Of a DNA stretch of 29,977 nt, positions 24,155-28,986 are shown in pieces. The stretch lies in the IMG/VR virus record IMGVR_UViG_3300033571_015411, positions 1 through 29,977 of that record. The stretch is one strand, 5' to 3'. Made by a program: the position numbers and the translations under genes. Source of the DNA: a virus. Every line of letters starts with the position of its first letter. The stretch's first letter is position 1. The notes below the pieces were generated by a model. The model had not been told where the DNA came from and did not search any database. It saw only the letters and a list, made by a program, of their open reading frames with translations.

Positions 24155-24420
24155 TTACGCGCGCGCAACGCACCCGCCCTTATGCGCACCCATACCCGCC
24201 CCTGCGCATGCGTGTATGCGCACCTACGCCCACGTGTGCATGCGTGGCCAGGCGCACATGCGTGCGTGTGTGTGCCCCTGGGCGGATGTGCGCGCGCCAA
24301 GGCGCGCTCTCGCCCGCGGATATGCGCGTGGATGCGCGTATGCGTGCCCGTGCCCGCCCTGCCCTGCCCCGACGCTAACCCCATCCCCTGCCCTCTACCT
24401 GCCCCACCCTGCCCTGCGAT
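24155..24420. other. Alternating purine-pyrimidine (Z-DNA-prone) and C-rich tract
   Basis: About 200 bases are dominated by CG, GC, TG and CA steps (runs such as CGCGCGCG, TGCGCATGCG and GTGTGTGTGC), then grade into C-rich text made of TGCCC/CGCCC units to about 24420. Composition and strand asymmetry differ sharply from the neighbouring genes. Frames that cross it encode only His/Arg/Ala/Pro-type repeats and are not considered genes. Confidence 0.7.
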
Positions 24421-24508
24421 CTCTGGTACCGTGCAACGCGACACTAGCCGACAATTGCTTGTGATATAGATAGCTTGCAACTTTTTTTCGTGACGTTGAA
24501 AAAAGTTC

Positions 24509-24537
24509 TTGACACTGGTTGGTGGTAGCTGTAGCTT
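24509..24537 (+). promoter_or_regulatory. Sigma70-type promoter for the rightward small-gene block
   Basis: TTGACA at 24509-24514 and TAGCTT at 24532-24537 are separated by 17 bases. Upstream, T-rich and A-rich runs (24481-24508) could act as an UP element. Transcription would start near 24544, about 60 bases before the first small gene. The -10 box is imperfect. Confidence 0.5.
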
Positions 24538-24567
24538 GTGATCCATCGGGGCGCTGTTGCCCTGGTA

Positions 24568-24604
24568 GCTAGCGCCGGCAAATCGGCGCATCGGAGCCAG
24601 TACC
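24568..24604 (+). promoter_or_regulatory. Leader hairpin (GCGCC/GGCGC type) of the first small gene
   Basis: GCGCCG (24572-24577) pairs with CGGCGC (24584-24589) across the loop GCAAAT, then ATCGGAG forms the ribosome binding site and the ATG follows eight bases later. A 29-base block (24568-24596) is identical to that before the next gene (24833-24861). Confidence 0.65.
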
Positions 24605-24814
24605 ATGATCAACGCTTGCCGCACCCTCTCCATCGTCTGCTACGTTCTCGCTGCTACTTGCGCCATCGCGATTGTGCGTGACTTTGTGTGCCTCGACACC
24701 GTCGGCGCTGCCAACGTCGTCTTGGCGGTCTGCACTATCGCTGCGTGCATCGGACTTGCGCAGCTGTGGTCGCTCGCCACGCGCTGCGAGATCGCCAAGG
24801 CTGCACGCAGCTAG
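24605..24814 (+). CDS. Small two-helix membrane protein (69 aa)
   Basis: The protein has two hydrophobic helices, about 7-24 (LSIVCYVLAATCAIAIV) and about 33-55 (GAANVVLAVCTIAACIGLAQ), separated by a short loop and followed by a basic tail. It should lie in the cytoplasmic membrane. It is the first gene after the rightward promoter, where phages often encode small host-takeover or superinfection proteins. The ATG at 24605 follows a CGGAG site and a conserved hairpin. No family is recognised. Confidence 0.7.
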   Translation: MINACRTLSIVCYVLAATCAIAIVRDFVCLDTVGAANVVLAVCTIAACIGLAQLWSLATRCEIAKAARS

Positions 24815-24832
24815 TCTACGCCCCCCCAACCT

Positions 24833-24868
24833 GCTAGCGCCGGCAAATCGGCGCATCGGAGTCACACC
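24833..24868 (+). promoter_or_regulatory. Leader hairpin (GCGCC/GGCGC type), second copy
   Basis: GCGCCG (24837-24842) and CGGCGC (24849-24854) enclose GCAAAT; the CGGAG ribosome binding site follows and the ATG begins at 24869. The block is an exact 29-base copy of that at 24568-24596, although the genes downstream are unrelated. Confidence 0.65.
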
Positions 24869-25096
24869 ATGGTTAGCCAATTCCGCACTATCCGATCGAT
24901 CGATATTCTGGCAGTCCGGCCGTCTGCAGACGGTACCACGTGGATCGTACTCGCAGCGCGCGCAGCCGATCCACTCCATCCCTGGGCAACCTATAGCGCC
25001 CTGCAGTCTGTAGACGGCGAGACGCTAGAATTGCGCCATCCCGTCTACTGTGTGACCTTGGATTGCGCCCGATCCAGCTATGCCGCGCGCGCGTAG
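24869..25096 (+). CDS. Hypothetical protein (75 aa)
   Basis: I do not recognise this small, probably soluble protein. It has an N-terminal strand-rich part (IRSIDILAVRPSADGTTWIV) and a C-terminus with two cysteines (YCVTLDCARS). The ATG at 24869 lies seven bases after CGGAG and downstream of the repeated leader hairpin, so the start is well supported. It is followed by a gap with three hairpins before the next gene. As an early-region small protein it may act on the host, but nothing in the sequence shows how. Confidence 0.65.
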   Translation: MVSQFRTIRSIDILAVRPSADGTTWIVLAARAADPLHPWATYSALQSVDGETLELRHPVYCVTLDCARSSYAARA

Positions 25097-25111
25097 CTTG
25101 TGCCCTCCATG

Positions 25112-25185
25112 CTGCACACTAGGCGATCGGCTTAGTGTGCAGACTGGAGCGCATACGCTCCCACAATGCGCCTGTAGCGGGCGCA
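25112..25185 (+). promoter_or_regulatory. Three consecutive hairpins in the leader of the cysteine-rich gene
   Basis: First stem: ten perfect pairs, 25112-25121 with 25133-25142, 11-base loop. Second: GGAGCG (25146-25151) with CGCTCC (25156-25161), four-base loop. Third: TGCGCC (25167-25172) with GGCGCA (25180-25185), the shared leader type, followed by AAGAGGG and the ATG at 25198. None is followed by a U run, so termination is less likely than a structured leader. Confidence 0.6.
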
Positions 25186-25197
25186 AGAGGGTACACC

Positions 25198-25947
25198 ATG
25201 AGCCAGATCCTTTATCGTGGCGCGCCGATCGGTGGCGCGTATTCCGGTGGCAATATCCAAGCGCTTATCGCGGAAGCAACGGGCAACGCAAAGACGGGCC
25301 CGGCGCTTACGCTCTGGATCCTGCCCGACACTGCAGACGACGGCCCCAACCCTTGGGCGCTGATCAAGGCTAACGGTAGCGCGTCCACGTGTGGCGATTG
25401 TCCACTGCAGGACGGACGCTGCTACACTCATGCAGGGGCCAGCCAAGTTCTAACCGCTGGCGCTGCGTCGATCGTCAAGGCGCGCACTTGCGATACGGTC
25501 ACACCGTCTAGGCGTGTGCGTCGCGCCAGGTCTGCAGCATTCGGCGACGCTGCAGCGCTGCCCCTGGACGTACTTGAGCGATGGCGATCCATCCGCGCGC
25601 AGCACGATCTTGCGCCACTAGGCTACACGCATGCTTGGCGCACACGTCCCGATCTCGCCGTTGACCATATGGCCAGCGTGGAGACGGTAGACGACGCTGC
25701 GGCAGCGCGCGCGGCCGGCTGGCGTTACTTCCGTGTTCGTCCAGTCGGCTCGCCGTTGCTCGCAGGCGAGATCCAGTGCCCTGCGTCGGCAGAGTCTGCG
25801 CGCGCTAATGCCATCGACTGCAACCGCTGTGGCCTGTGCGACGGCAATACGCGCGGCAACCGTCGCCCTAGCGTATCGATTGAAGACCACGGCGCTGGCG
25901 CCAAGGTCGCCAGACGCGCAGCTAATTCGCTGCGCATCGGAGCCTAG
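25198..25947 (+). CDS. Cysteine-rich phage protein with CxxC clusters (249 aa)
   Basis: The N-terminal part contains ATGNAKTGPALTLWILP and then C65-x2-C68-x6-C75 (TCGDCPLQDGRCYTHAG). The pattern of a TGNxKTG stretch followed by CxxCP and CY recalls a group of phage proteins of unknown function I have seen described, but I cannot name it with certainty. A second group, C194, C208, C211 and C214 (CNRCGLCDG), gives enough ligands for a metal or iron-sulphur cluster. The frame is open to 25135; the ATG at 25198 is chosen for its GAGGG site. The last 30 bases form a hairpin resembling the shared leader element. Confidence 0.7.
   Translation: MSQILYRGAPIGGAYSGGNIQALIAEATGNAKTGPALTLWILPDTADDGPNPWALIKANGSASTCGDCPLQDGRCYTHAGASQVLTAGAASIVKARTCDTVTPSRRVRRARSAAFGDAAALPLDVLERWRSIRAQHDLAPLGYTHAWRTRPDLAVDHMASVETVDDAAAARAAGWRYFRVRPVGSPLLAGEIQCPASAESARANAIDCNRCGLCDGNTRGNRRPSVSIEDHGAGAKVARRAANSLRIGA
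25916..25943 (+). promoter_or_regulatory. Leader-like hairpin inside the 3' end of the cysteine-rich gene
   Basis: GCGCAG (25916-25921) pairs with CTGCGC (25930-25935), followed by ATCGGAGCC exactly as after the leader hairpins at 24572 and 24837. It ends two bases before the stop codon, and no start codon follows at the right distance. It may be a relic or a processing site. Confidence 0.45.
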
Positions 25948-25958
25948 GCTAGACTGCC

Positions 25959-26005
25959 ATCCGCGCCCCGGTGGGCTTGTCGCGGTCCGACTCCGCGACG
26001 CGGAT
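25959..26005 (+). ncRNA. tRNA-like three-way junction, copy 1
   Basis: A seven-bp closing stem (ATCCGCG 25959-25965 with CGCGGAT 25999-26005) encloses a CCC/GGG arm with loop CGGT (25966-25975), a linker CTTGT, and a five-bp arm CGCGG/CCGCG with the seven-base loop TCCGACT (25981-25997). The loop has T, C, G and A at the places of tRNA T-loop 54, 56, 57 and 58. There is no anticodon arm and no CCA end. Copy 2 at 26750 has the same architecture with different paired bases. It lies in the leader of a zinc-ribbon gene. Confidence 0.6.
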
Positions 26006-26007
26006 CC

Positions 26008-26047
26008 GCTGCAATCCTGCAGCACCTTGCGCCAGACTATTGGCGCA
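26008..26047 (+). promoter_or_regulatory. Two hairpins between the tRNA-like element and the first zinc-ribbon gene
   Basis: GCTGCA (26008-26013) and TGCAGC (26018-26023) form the first stem, matching a hairpin in the same place after copy 2. TGCGCCA (26028-26034) and TGGCGCA (26041-26047) form the second, which is the shared GCGCC/GGCGC leader type, followed by TGAGG and the ATG at 26063. Confidence 0.6.
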
Positions 26048-26062
26048 CAATGAGGCTACACC

Positions 26063-26227
26063 ATGATCATGCGTCACCAGTGCCCCCGATGCCTTGCCGT
26101 GCACACTACCGCGCGCGGCCTGTGCCCTTCCTGCAACCGTCGCCAAGCTATCGCCGACGCCGTAGGCACGGCGATCGTGTTCGCCGTCGTCGCCTTGCTT
26201 GGCCTAACCTTGGTCGCAATTCGCTAA
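26063..26227 (+). CDS. Zinc-ribbon membrane miniprotein A (54 aa)
   Basis: The protein starts MIMRHQCPRC and has C7-x2-C10 and C21-x2-C24, a zinc-ribbon or rubredoxin-like knuckle pair, then a membrane helix from about 30 to 53 (GTAIVFAVVALLGLTLVAI). It is a paralogue of the 57-residue protein at 26825, with the same start, cysteine spacing and membrane helix. Topology would place the ribbon in the cytoplasm if the basic residues stay inside. The start is supported by TGAGG seven bases upstream and by the paralogue. Function unknown; a membrane-tethered metal-binding regulator is one possibility. Confidence 0.7.
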   Translation: MIMRHQCPRCLAVHTTARGLCPSCNRRQAIADAVGTAIVFAVVALLGLTLVAIR

Positions 26228-26238
26228 CGTCTACGCTG

Positions 26239-26256
26239 GCGCCAGCATATAGGCGC
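26239..26256 (+). promoter_or_regulatory. Leader hairpin (GCGCC/GGCGC type) of the 90-aa gene
   Basis: GCGCC (26239-26243) and GGCGC (26252-26256) enclose AGCATATA, followed by AAAGG and the ATG at 26268. The 5' half also belongs to the perfect palindrome GCTGGCGCCAGC (26235-26246), so two alternative folds are possible. Confidence 0.5.
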
Positions 26257-26267
26257 AAAGGTATCCC

Positions 26268-26540
26268 ATGACCTACGTTGACCAGTTGATCCGTGCCGTC
26301 CATGACAGTTTCTGGCACAACACGCCGCAGCATATTTACCACTGCCACGACCTCGCAGAGGCGCGCGACGAAATTGACGCCGCTTGGCTCGAGCTGAATT
26401 TGCATCGAGATCGCTTTGACGCCGTCGACACAGACTGGGAAATGGACGGCGACACTATGATCGTCCACGGCTGGACCGACGACGACGCGCGCACCATCCA
26501 GATCCACCTGCACCGTGGGGGTCGCAATGCTGCGTTGTAG
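26268..26540 (+). CDS. Hypothetical acidic protein (90 aa)
   Basis: The protein is acidic and His/Asp-rich (HNTPQHIYHCHDLAEARDEI; TDWEMDGDTMIVHGWTDDDA). The N-terminal half is helical and the C-terminal half ends in two or three strands (TMIVHGW, TIQIHLHRGG). I do not recognise a family. Small acidic early phage proteins sometimes mimic DNA or bind host enzymes, but this is not shown here. The AAAGG ribosome binding site is about six bases before the ATG. Its last 14 bases overlap the next gene. Confidence 0.65.
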   Translation: MTYVDQLIRAVHDSFWHNTPQHIYHCHDLAEARDEIDAAWLELNLHRDRFDAVDTDWEMDGDTMIVHGWTDDDARTIQIHLHRGGRNAAL

Positions 26541-26742
26541 CTACATGTCGCCGCCGCGCGAGGGCGACTGGCTAGCCTACACTGCAGACCGTAGCCAGTT
26601 CATATCGGCGCGCAGCCTCGACGCACTGCGCACAAAGGTGCAAGTCCTGCGACGCAAAGGCGCTGACTTGGGACGCACAGCCTACCTGCGACACGGCCAC
26701 GGCGCCGACGCATACGACACCGCCCATCCTTGGGCATTGTAG
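26527..26742 (+). CDS. Hypothetical basic protein (71 aa)
   Basis: The gene overlaps the end of the upstream gene by 14 bases in another frame. The ATG at 26527 follows GTGGGGGT; a GTG four codons earlier is an alternative start. The product is basic, with a helix in the middle (SLDALRTKVQVLRRKGADLG) and a Trp/His-containing tail (HGADAYDTAHPWAL). No family is recognised. Overlap suggests coupled translation. It ends eight bases before the second tRNA-like element. Confidence 0.6.
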   Translation: MLRCSYMSPPREGDWLAYTADRSQFISARSLDALRTKVQVLRRKGADLGRTAYLRHGHGADAYDTAHPWAL

Positions 26743-26749
26743 CCACACA

Positions 26750-26796
26750 CTGCGTGCCCTAGTGGGCAAGTCCAGGTGCGATCCCTGGTCACGCAG
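26750..26796 (+). ncRNA. tRNA-like three-way junction, copy 2
   Basis: CTGCGTG (26750-26756) pairs with CACGCAG (26790-26796). Inside are CCC/GGG with loop TAGT (26757-26766), a linker CAAGT, and CCAGG/CCTGG with the seven-base loop TGCGATC (26772-26788). Every arm has the same length as in copy 1 while most bases in the seven-bp stem and in the five-bp arm differ and remain paired, so there is compensating change. The loop again has T, C, G and A at T-loop positions 54, 56, 57 and 58. Confidence 0.6.
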
Positions 26797-26797
26797 C

Positions 26798-26813
26798 CGC
26801 TGCATCTGCAGCG
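26798..26813 (+). promoter_or_regulatory. Hairpin between the second tRNA-like element and zinc-ribbon gene B
   Basis: CGCTGC (26798-26803) and GCAGCG (26808-26813) enclose ATCT, the counterpart of the hairpin at 26008-26023. ATGGTGGTGCCATG follows directly and can also fold so that the GGTGG ribosome binding site sits in a small loop next to the start codon at 26825. Confidence 0.55.
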
Positions 26814-26824
26814 ATGGTGGTGCC

Positions 26825-26998
26825 ATGATCATCCGCAACCAGTGTCCCAATTGCCTGCGTGCCCACGCACGCGGGCGCGGCTACCTGTGCCAAGAATGCG
26901 ACGACGCAGCCGCAAGGCTCAACCGCTCGCTCGACATCGGCGCCGTGGTCTATCTCATTCTGGCGGCGCTATTCATCTACGCCTTTGTGCGCGAATAA
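26825..26998 (+). CDS. Zinc-ribbon membrane miniprotein B (57 aa)
   Basis: It starts MIIRNQCPNC and has C7-x2-C10 and C22-x2-C25, then a membrane helix about 37-55 (GAVVYLILAALFIYAFV) and a short charged tail. It is a paralogue of the 54-residue protein at 26063: same N-terminus, cysteine pairs and helix, with one extra residue between the cysteine pairs. The longer open frame starts at 26762, inside the tRNA-like element, so the ATG at 26825 is chosen by comparison with the paralogue. Function unknown. Confidence 0.7.
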   Translation: MIIRNQCPNCLRAHARGRGYLCQECDDAAARLNRSLDIGAVVYLILAALFIYAFVRE

Positions 26999-27008
26999 AG
27001 GGGCGACT

Positions 27009-27263
27009 ATGTACCTGCAACTCGTGAACCTTACGGTAAACCAGCAACACGCACTGCAAGACTATTTGGACACGCCGATTGGCGACTGGCCTGAGACTGA
27101 CAAGGCTTGGCGCAGACTGCTAGGCTTGCTGCCTGATGACAGGCGACGCAATGCCAGCGTGACCGAGCGCAACCTGTCACGCACTAGGCGAGCGCAAGAG
27201 CTAGTGCGCTTGGCCACAGGGTGCAGCTGGTACAGTTGCCACCCGTCACGCAAGGGCAGGTAG
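27009..27263 (+). CDS. Hypothetical basic protein (84 aa)
   Basis: A small protein of mixed structure: MYLQLVNLTVNQQHALQDYL forms a strand plus helix, then DKAWRRLLGLLPDDRRRNAS and a basic C-terminus with CSWYSCHPSRKG. I do not recognise a family. The ATG at 27009 is ten bases after the upstream stop, with AAAGGGG as ribosome binding site, so the pair is probably translated together. The longer open frame back to 26859 lies inside the zinc-ribbon gene and is rejected. Confidence 0.65.
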   Translation: MYLQLVNLTVNQQHALQDYLDTPIGDWPETDKAWRRLLGLLPDDRRRNASVTERNLSRTRRAQELVRLATGCSWYSCHPSRKGR

Positions 27264-27325
27264 CCTCTTGCATATGGGCACATGCGCCCGCATCATATTG
27301 CCTACGCCGCCGCTGCGAGGTACAT

Positions 27326-27787
27326 ATGGACACGCCTGTAGGAACAGATTGCAAGACCAAGTGCAAGAATTTGCTGGCCATGTTGCGAGCGATGCACCTG
27401 CTACACCACACCGCACACCTGCAAGCCAGCGGCGAGACGTCCTACCAGGATCACCTGCTGTTCGAGCGCCTCTACGGTGGACTTGTCGGCGAGGCAGATG
27501 GACTGGCAGAGAAGTTGGTTAGCCTGTACGACAACGACGCCGTCGATGCCGTCGATCAGGCTGGACGCATCGACACTATTTGTCAGCGCGCCAAACAAGC
27601 AAGCAAGGATCCCATCAAGCGCGCCTACATGCTCGAAGAGGGCCTGCAGGATGTCATCGACGCAGTTCGGACTTCTCTCAAGAAGGAAGATAAGCTGTCA
27701 ATTGGCATGGACAACTTCCTTCAGGGACTTGCCGACACTCACGAGACGGCCTGCTACTTGCTCAAGCAGCGCATGCGGAAAGGTTGA
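27326..27787 (+). CDS. Dps-like ferritin-family protein (153 aa)
   Basis: Four-helix ferritin-like fold of the Dps type. H31, H43, D58 and E62 (in HHTAHLQASG, YQDHLLFERLY and GEADGLAEKL) fall at the numbering and spacing of the inter-subunit ferroxidase centre known from Listeria Dps. The last helix, FLQGLADTHETACYLLKQRM, matches the C-terminal helix of the family. The length (153) is typical. Dps proteins form dodecamers that oxidise and store iron and can bind and protect DNA; here it may protect phage DNA or lower free iron. The frame extends to 27221, but the ATG at 27326 has GCGAGG upstream. The stop codon overlaps the -35 box of the next promoter. Confidence 0.75.
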   Translation: MDTPVGTDCKTKCKNLLAMLRAMHLLHHTAHLQASGETSYQDHLLFERLYGGLVGEADGLAEKLVSLYDNDAVDAVDQAGRIDTICQRAKQASKDPIKRAYMLEEGLQDVIDAVRTSLKKEDKLSIGMDNFLQGLADTHETACYLLKQRMRKG

Positions 27788-27857: not shown

Positions 27858-28004
27858 GTGACCAAGAACCTCCAAAGCATAGCGGACTTCACGGGTTGCC
27901 GACTGCGCGCTACTGGCTACGCGCAGGAACGGACGCTACCTCCCGTGGAGTCCGCTATGCGGTGGAGGGCAGATGCCTCCCTCTTTCCGTCTGGTCTACG
28001 CTGA
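27858..28004 (+). CDS. Possible small leader ORF (48 aa, GTG start)
   Basis: A GTG at 27858 follows AGAGGAAA at a good distance and opens a 48-codon frame beginning MTKNLQSIADFTGCRLRATG that runs through the 19-bp stem and ends 32 bases inside the initiator gene. Agreement of its start with the ATG position of the zinc-ribbon gene B leader supports it. Against it, the frame is constrained by the inverted repeat and the product matches nothing I know. If translated, ribosomes would open the stem and couple to the initiator gene. Confidence 0.3.
   Translation: MTKNLQSIADFTGCRLRATGYAQERTLPPVESAMRWRADASLFPSGLR
27877..27960 (+). ncRNA. 84-base structured element with a 19-bp closing stem
   Basis: 27877-27895 and 27942-27960 pair over 19 positions without a gap; 18 are Watson-Crick and one is a U-G wobble in RNA. 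Inside, CTGCGCG (27903-27909) pairs with CGCGCAG (27920-27926) across a ten-base loop. The initiator ribosome binding site (GGTGGAGGG) begins directly after the stem. It could be a regulatory leader fold, a processing site, or, as DNA, a single-strand initiation or protein-binding site. Confidence 0.65.
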
Positions 28005-28986
28005 CATCTGGCCGCAGCTAGCAGGTACGAGCGCGCTATCCCAGGCGTTGTACTTCAGGCTCGCTGCAGGCCCCGACGCCAGAGCGTTTCCCGTCACGCC
28101 GATGCGCATGCGAGCGCTTGCCGACGATCTGCAGGTATCCCTGCAGGCGCTGCGCCCCGCTCTGCAGACGCTCGTCGAGCGCAACCTCATCATGCTCGAC
28201 AACGCCGCAGCACCGACTCTTGCCTACTGCCCCGCCAGAATGAGGCACGAATTTCCCCGACATCTTGCCCACCACAAGGCATGGTCACGCCAAGTTCTTG
28301 ACTACCACTGGGCTAGCTTCGGTCAGCAACTCGCTGAAGATATTCAACTCAGACCCCCCACCCCTTACCCCACCCCTCCCCCCACCCCTACCCCCACCCC
28401 TTACCCCAGGGGTGGGGTAGGTAAGGATAAGGATACAGATACAGATAGTACTTCGTACTATCTATCGCCTGCTGCTGACGCAGCCGCCGACGATTGGGAT
28501 CGGCTCGTAGCGGACATGGGCAGCAAGCAGGGTGAACTGCTCGACGCAGCAGATGCCCCTAGGACGCGCGATACGGGCGCGAAGCAGGCCAAGGCCATCC
28601 TCCACAGGAAACTCGCGTCTGAGGCGGCAAAGCGTTGGTTGCAGACTATGGTGCCGCCCAATGCGCCTGTGCAGGCAGACGCTGCGTGGATGAAGCTGAA
28701 CGCACGCAACGTGACTACCGTAGTGGCTGCGCTTGGAAACATCAGGTACTTGCAGACGTTGTTTGAGTACAGCAAGGACAACCTGCCCTACTACGCTGGC
28801 CTGCCCTACGGACAGCACGCCCAGGTCAGGGTTTGGACGATGACGGAGTGGTGCAGCAGGGCGAACGTCGAGAAAGTCCACGCCCAACTTGCTGCATGGA
28901 TGCTGCGCGAACACGGCAGGGAGACACGCATCGTACTGGACTGGTCGCGCAAGCCTGAACCCGAAATGCTGGAGGACGTCCAATGA
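27973..28986 (+). CDS. Replication initiator / helicase-loader-like protein (337 aa)
   Basis: The N-terminal 100 residues look like a winged helix-turn-helix domain (TPMRMRALADDLQVSLQALR, then PALQTLVERNLIMLDN), as in phage replication initiators of the lambda O or DnaT/DnaD type. A Pro/Thr-rich linker (PPTPYPTPPPTPTPTPYP, about 127-145) and a charged stretch separate it from a helical C-terminal domain (about 220-337). It overlaps the DnaB-type helicase gene by ATGA, so the pair is likely one functional unit: origin binding and helicase loading. The linker DNA is C-rich and repeat-rich and may be the origin. The ATG follows GGAGGG. The exact family is not recognised. Confidence 0.6.
   Translation: MPPSFRLVYADIWPQLAGTSALSQALYFRLAAGPDARAFPVTPMRMRALADDLQVSLQALRPALQTLVERNLIMLDNAAAPTLAYCPARMRHEFPRHLAHHKAWSRQVLDYHWASFGQQLAEDIQLRPPTPYPTPPPTPTPTPYPRGGVGKDKDTDTDSTSYYLSPAADAAADDWDRLVADMGSKQGELLDAADAPRTRDTGAKQAKAILHRKLASEAAKRWLQTMVPPNAPVQADAAWMKLNARNVTTVVAALGNIRYLQTLFEYSKDNLPYYAGLPYGQHAQVRVWTMTEWCSRANVEKVHAQLAAWMLREHGRETRIVLDWSRKPEPEMLEDVQ
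28354..28463. other. C-rich, repeat-rich core inside the initiator gene (candidate origin)
   Basis: 28354-28407 is almost pure ACCCC/TACCCC units, ended by the stem TACCCC/GGGGTA (28402-28407 with 28414-28419). Two AAGGAT units (28423-28434), two ACAGAT units (28435-28446) and a nine-bp inverted repeat AGATAGTAC/GTACTATCT with three-base loop (28443-28463) follow. Lambdoid phages carry iterons inside gene O in a comparable position. The opposite strand is G-rich enough for quadruplex formation. Confidence 0.45.

Follow-up and report, generated by a model that had tools for sequence, protein, structure and literature searches.

Armless tRNA-like elements recur between genes of unrelated phages and may be sites of RNase P cleavage

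Results

Genes and structures around the two elements

The window, by which we mean the whole 29,977-base stretch of an IMG/VR virus record, carries two tRNA-like elements, which lie on the plus strand together with the genes and hairpins next to them. The first (copy 1, 25959-26005) begins 11 nts after the TAG stop codon (25945-25947) of the ORF 25135-25947, which matches phrog_2554 (annotated as unknown function), and the second (copy 2, 26750-26796) begins 7 nts after the TAG stop (26740-26742) of the ORF 26515-26742. In the predicted fold of 25945-26062 (z = -4.1), copy 1 is followed immediately on its 3′ side by a hairpin (26008-26023, GCUGCA/UGCAGC) and then by a second one at about 26028-26047, and the fold of 26740-26830 places a hairpin at 26798-26813, immediately 3′ of copy 2. 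A hairpin directly after the element recurs at the equivalent place in many other copies. The small genes downstream are located at 26063-26227 (54 aa, with CxxC pairs and a hydrophobic tail; no match in Pfam or PHROG) and at 26825-26998 (57 aa; no match in Pfam). Judging from the CxxC motifs followed by a hydrophobic tail, the two genes look paralogous, and the elements were probably duplicated together with them, a history that would make the compensating changes between the two copies meaningful.

Consensus sigma-70 promoters and terminators in the region 24400-27400 were not above chance, and a promoter role of the elements is not supported. A different repeated leader hairpin (GCGCCGgcaaatCGGCGCatcGGAG) was seen at 24568-24599, 24833-24864 and 26235-26266, abutting the Shine-Dalgarno (SD) sequence of other small genes, and imperfect 12-bp repeats of the CCCCCCACCCCT type, with a palindromic CCCAGGGGTGGGG at the end, occupy 28354-28413 within the ORF 27973-28986.

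Fold and pairing register

A sequence-only reading had described two elements of one architecture at these places, and indeed both are present, the MFE fold of each 47-nt sequence being a three-way junction (z = -2.4 for copy 1 and -3.2 for copy 2). In copy 1, a 6-bp stem P1 (25959-25964/26000-26005, ATCCGC/GCGGAT) encloses a 4-bp D-like arm (25965-25976, GCCC-CGGT-GGGC), a linker of 2 nts (25977-25978, TT) and a 7-bp T-like arm with a 7-nt T-loop (25979-25999, GTCGCGG-TCCGACT-CCGCGAC). The same parts of copy 2 are P1 at 26750-26755/26791-26796 (CTGCGT/ACGCAG), the D-like arm at 26756-26767 (GCCC-TAGT-GGGC), the linker at 26768-26769 (AA) and the T-like arm at 26770-26790 (GTCCAGG-TGCGATC-CCTGGTC), with a single T.T mismatch within the 7-bp arm; the D-like loop has the form YRGT in both copies. 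The division originally proposed, with stems of 7, 3 and 5 bp, a 5-nt linker and one unpaired base, is a close alternative register. We preferred 6 + 4 + 2 nt + 7 because, across 24 diverse copies, columns 22 and 42 are paired in 22 and columns 23 and 41 in 21, with double changes present at the latter pair. Likewise, the notion that the stems differ between copies and remain fully paired was supported by compensating changes and covariation, except for the mismatch in copy 2.

The bare stem geometry has a handful of other matches in the window and 54 in six shuffled strands. It is thus not rare by chance in GC-rich DNA, and the case for the element therefore depends on conservation, covariation and position.

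Conservation and covariation

Three related contigs cover the region, with a portal gene 99% identical in two of them and 83% in the third, and all three keep both elements. The T-loops of the 83% relative, TTCGATT and TTCAATT, are textbook tRNA T-loops. When the eight copies of the window phage and these relatives were aligned, 98.9% of the cells were paired, 8 of the 15 pairs showed changes on both sides, and the covariation score was 0.61, compared with 0.19 for shuffled and less than 0.12 for slid alignments. DNA searches against cultured phages gave no match for the right end of the window, nor for the neighborhoods of the element in three other contigs (L018, L013 and L092).

To look over IMG/VR, two DNA patterns made of the D-like arm and the T-loop were scanned, and true tRNAs were removed with ARAGORN; the first pattern often picked up genuine tRNAs with a long variable arm (Ile-TAT, Tyr, Leu), both in viral and in genome contigs, and these were discarded. 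After this removal the same junction was found in unrelated phage contigs, including forms with the D-stems GCTC/GAGC and GCCT/AGGC. A covariance model of the element (R1) scored aligned elements at 50-67 bits (63.7 for copy 1 and 57.7 for copy 2, each of which is itself in the model) and divergent copies down to about 22 bits, while real tRNAs remained below about 25 bits. Within these contigs R1 recovered additional copies that had escaped the patterns and lie in clusters on one strand, for example three each in L026, L132 and L018; the metagenomic phages have one to three clustered copies. In L135 (5407-5453) and L139 (5438-5484), the gene whose stop codon precedes the element encodes the major head protein, and C74 is absent there.

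Using an alignment of 24 diverse copies (A2), from which pattern matches without any P1 had been excluded, we obtained a covariation score of 0.650, compared with a shuffled mean of 0.18 and at most 0.16 for slid alignments. P1 was paired in 83% of cells and the T-like arm in 97%, and both covary; the search patterns had left P1 and five of the seven T-like arm pairs free, fixing only the D-like arm and the T-loop. None of the 24 aligned copies has an anticodon arm, and together with the covariation this upholds the proposal of a tRNA without its anticodon arm that is selected as an RNA. Searching with a covariance model had been suggested as a check, with a lack of further covarying copies as the opposing outcome; the element was recovered far beyond close relatives, and covarying copies were found both in relatives and in unrelated phages.

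Cultured phages and mobile elements

R1 found the element in the T7-like cyanophages Syn5 and S-TIP28, between the scaffold and capsid genes, and many uncultured relatives of these phages have it at the same place. It also matched 21 of the 247 genomes searched in the order of Streptomyces sp. NRRL F-4489, at 36-57 bits, with copies of the type C-GCCCC-GATGGTC-GTA-GGCCGGG-TTCGACT-CCCGGCC-GGGGC-[G/A]C. These loci encode DUF2637, an RRQRL zinc-binding protein and a RapZ_C-like domain, from which we infer that they are mobile islands. Among 229 genomes searched in the class of an Azoarcus MAG, only the seed genome matched; its copy (L124/L256 1501-1546, 47.8 bits) is located at a contig end, 2 nts upstream of a tRNA-Ala gene.

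BLAST with one Streptomyces copy reached Gordonia phage VanLee, mycobacteriophages Konstantine, SWU2 and Phlei, and Streptomyces phage Dagobah. By R1, VanLee has 17 copies, all on a single strand and the largest number per genome that we found, and the other four have one to three. In VanLee, 191 of the 192 pairs are formed and the double-change score is 0.60, compared with 0.10 when shuffled, in copies that had been selected for pairing. At the threshold used, no element was found in Shocker, Casserole, DS1, Bipper, Baka, Courthouse, phiC31, Bxb1 or T4. Matches of about 17 bits in FlowerPower and Immanuel3 were only T-arms of real tRNAs, and a match to the erm(55) plasmid gene, antisense within the CDS, was taken as chance.

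In the VanLee gap before gene 147 (L268 320-422), the element has an internal tandem duplication of the D-arm stretch (CCCGCCCTGGTGGGCACGCAGGAGT), which may be a snapshot of how the length of the D-arm changes. The elements of Konstantine (L287, 36-52 kb) are of two types, GGGCAGATGGTC, whose stack is 12 bp long, and GGGTGACTGGCAGACATCCGGG, whose stack is 11 bp, and in both ACGA and then a hairpin follow on the 3′ side.

Comparison with tRNA

The constant features of the element are the T-loop, the D-loop G and an acceptor/T stack of about 12 bp, and the D-like arm varies between about 2 and 5 bp. The resemblance of the last loop to a T-loop, pointed out from the two copies, held for the class, since T54-N-C56-R57-A58 is found in 24 of the 24 copies of A2; most of these were found by patterns that fix the loop, and copies found by homology or R1 also keep it. 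In the same alignment, the D-loop G13 and T-loop C30 are invariant. With tRNA (RF00005) the element shares the T-arm GGTTCRANYCC, the D-loop GG, the stack and, in most non-cyanophage copies, R73/C74. It differs from tRNA in having no anticodon arm, a length of 43-50 nts, a short D-arm and no CCA, as well as a P1 of 5-6 bp, a T stem of 6-7 bp and multiple copies between protein genes.

In VanLee the stack from the T-loop to the end is 12 bp, split 5 + 7 or 6 + 6; 16 copies fit this register, 15 of them without mismatch. When only the 12-bp register was imposed, the next two bases were purine-C in all 16. By the same counting, position 73 is a purine in 25 and position 74 is C in 24 of the 32 other non-cyanophage copies, compared with C74 in only 2 of 21 copies of T7-like cyanophages; copies within one phage are related and thus these counts are not independent. 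The stack is not universally 12 bp. An unconstrained measure gave 12-13 bp in 19 of 32 copies, the window copies can form 13 bp, and the Konstantine variants have 11. Full CCA is missing from nearly all copies, and C74 is missing in L026, L135, L139 and most cyanophage copies.

Unlike tRNA, the element lies below detection by Rfam and mostly by ARAGORN. ARAGORN called no tRNA or tmRNA in the window, and no family of Rfam 15 was matched above the gathering score, the sole exception being tRNA in the cyanophage-like contig L250; at low stringency, an antisense match to Plastid-ycf2 on the L004 copy was a chance one. Database records may list such elements as odd tRNAs: ARAGORN calls tRNA-Val over a VanLee element (L286 18227-18317) and a RunningBrook stretch that resembles the element (PQ559671 41752-41777) is annotated 'tRNA-OTHER'.

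Position between genes

About two thirds of 32 copies have the stop codon of an ORF of at least 45 aa 3-11 nts upstream, compared with 3.3% of random positions. Many copies are followed by a hairpin, an SD sequence and the next gene, whose start is about 28-60 nts from the element in many cases and about 180-205 nts away at the capsid gene of cyanophages. All eight annotated gaps longer than 45 nts in a 5-kb stretch of VanLee contain a copy, as do five of the six such gaps from gp45 to gp53 of Konstantine. The placement in leaders of small genes that had been proposed is seen, and the stop codon of the preceding gene is linked to the element just as closely.

From tRNA to armless element in cyanophages

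Among T7-like cyanophage relatives, the single site before the capsid gene holds forms ranging from a near-complete tRNA to the armless element. L250 has a tRNA recognized by both ARAGORN and Rfam, and L205 a tRNA called by ARAGORN with an odd anticodon. P60-like phages have cloverleaf-like forms, as read from the sequence, that extend into the scaffold stop, and Syn5-, L188- and L194-like phages have armless elements. Since the acceptor/T side is kept throughout and the anticodon arm is present in some members and absent from others, the series suggests that the cyanophage element was derived from tRNA and that selection is for end processing, not decoding. A similar descent outside the cyanophages would be an extension of this view.

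Discussion

The element is probably a minimal substrate for RNase P, and perhaps also for RNase Z, that serves to cut polycistronic phage mRNA between genes. What RNase P binds in every pre-tRNA is the stack of T-arm and acceptor stem; it measures the distance from the elbow and also cuts other RNAs that match this ruler (PMC4919913). Its toeholds are the elbow, the T-arm, the 3′ CC (with L15) and the 5′ leader (PMC13254310), of which bases -3 to -8 are contacted by its protein, and mRNAs and phage RNAs (M3, C4, T4 gene 32) are among its known substrates (PMC11143913). Intergenic cleavage by host RNase P is favored because the element supplies these contacts and drops the arm that RNase P ignores. 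With a coaxial acceptor/T-arm stack of about 12 bp and a T-loop that may dock on the D-loop GG as an elbow, it would mimic a pre-tRNA, offering purine-C at 73-74 except in cyanophages and leaving out the unneeded anticodon arm. The predicted cut is at the 5′ side of P1, within the short spacer past the upstream stop codon, and would separate the upstream mRNA from a downstream mRNA consisting of a structured 5′ end, the hairpin, the SD and the gene; cutting or trimming on the 3′ side could be the work of RNase Z. The spacing would keep the element near the stop codon, still folded during termination, with leader nucleotides available for RNase P. Such cleavage may affect mRNA stability or translation.

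The lack of full CCA, the copies without C74 and the stacks of 11 or 13 bp count against recognition by RNase P. For the cyanophages, the low frequency of C74 agrees with the different effects of the 3′ CCA on cyanobacterial and E. coli RNase P, as far as the work of Pascual & Vioque (1999) is represented by its citation in PMC13254310. The D-loop is conserved and is not strictly needed by RNase P (PMC4919913), which may point also to RNase Z, the CCA-adding enzyme, TruB or the ribosomal L1 stalk, all of which are readers of the tRNA elbow; for RNase Z, the CCA-adding enzyme and the L1 stalk this is described in PMC4919913. Recognition by EF-Tu, another factor considered from the sequence, is without specific support, and RNase P is favored.

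Excision at both ends (by RNase P and RNase Z or exonucleases, with CCA added) to give a stable trans-acting RNA of about 45 nts, for example a decoy for a tRNA-binding host factor, is unlikely. What RNase Z and the CCA-adding enzyme read, namely the elbow, the acceptor stack and N73 (PMC4919913), is all present in the element, and many copies per genome would raise the dosage. However, the copies within one genome differ in sequence, each at a fixed intergenic place, and a trans-acting RNA needs neither the stop-codon spacing nor one copy per gap.

That same spacing, together with the distance to the next start in many copies and the binding of tRNA elbows by the L1 stalk (PMC4919913), could suit a translation element that, in the manner of a small intergenic IRES and perhaps through the L1 stalk, influences the ribosome at termination or the re-initiation at the next gene. 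We consider this rather improbable, since many copies precede a gene that has an SD of its own and the cyanophage copies are far from the capsid start. Moreover, we know of no role for a 12-bp stack with R73-C74 in translation termination or re-initiation.

About equally doubtful is a regulatory leader that senses a protein or ligand, either as a riboswitch or as an operator for an elbow-binding host or phage protein. A small three-way junction with dockable loops in leaders of small genes would fit, but the junction bases vary freely in A2, conservation falls mainly on the bases of the tRNA elbow and ends, and no alternative terminator/antiterminator fold was seen.

Programmed stop-codon readthrough, stimulated by a structure 5-9 nts downstream, is not supported and very improbable: the spacing is like that of recoding stimulators and many upstream stops are TAG (19 of 28 in other phages), but most predicted ORFs of the window (17 of 25) end in TAG anyway, and the in-frame extension (median 23 codons) does not clearly exceed that in the other frames (18 codons) and often ends at once. 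Equally remote is the idea of tRNA-gene remnants without RNA function, kept as attP or decaying, which has a precedent in halovirus HF2 (PMC8707807) and the fuller tRNA of some cyanophages in its favor, and is opposed by up to 17 copies per genome, compensatory changes, the fixed intergenic place and the occurrence in T7-like phages; an attP fragment would be one copy, close to an integrase, that matches the end of a host tRNA gene exactly, and the elements are multi-copy and divergent.

The open-access library searched gave no prior description of an armless tRNA-like phage element, and subscription papers may contain one. As far as could be checked, a repeated armless mimic in phages is new, the nearest ideas being mitochondrial punctuation and single operon RNase P sites. 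In mitochondria, tRNAs lie between genes and RNase P and RNase Z cut the polycistronic RNA there; the arrangement of tRNA shapes between genes is alike, and mitochondria use real tRNAs whereas phages use dedicated armless mimics. A tRNA-like fold with a T-loop and little or no anticodon arm is also found in the tRNA-like domain of tmRNA and in YrlA RNAs. These are parts of long stable RNAs, unlike the element, for which the window gave no tmRNA call and no Rfam match. Operon mRNA sites, phage C4 antisense RNA, M3 and T4 gene 32 are RNase P substrates in or near mRNAs, some of them of phages (PMC11143913), but they are single cases sharing no armless-tRNA architecture, whereas the element is one motif with many copies in unrelated phages, and its cleavage is predicted. 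The SAS and ESAS of cluster K mycobacteriophages are likewise repeated between genes, before small phage genes, but they are a 13-bp sequence motif and a 17-bp inverted repeat, and neither is described as tRNA-like (PMC3203893).

On balance, it seems somewhat more likely than not that several unrelated phage lineages and some integrative islands use an armless tRNA mimic, partly derived from tRNA and tuned to the RNase P of the host, as a repeated punctuation at which host RNase P would cut mRNA gene by gene. The proposal is directly testable with Konstantine in M. smegmatis, VanLee in Gordonia, Dagobah in Streptomyces coelicolor and Syn5 in Synechococcus. If true, the class would provide annotation pipelines with a new RNA family and would be a naturally occurring series of minimal RNase P substrates that vary in step with the host. 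Polycistronic phage mRNA is cut by RNase III (T7) and by RNase E, and a self-contained, repeated RNase P mark would give phage mRNA another general processing route and account for many of the so-called empty gaps between small phage genes.
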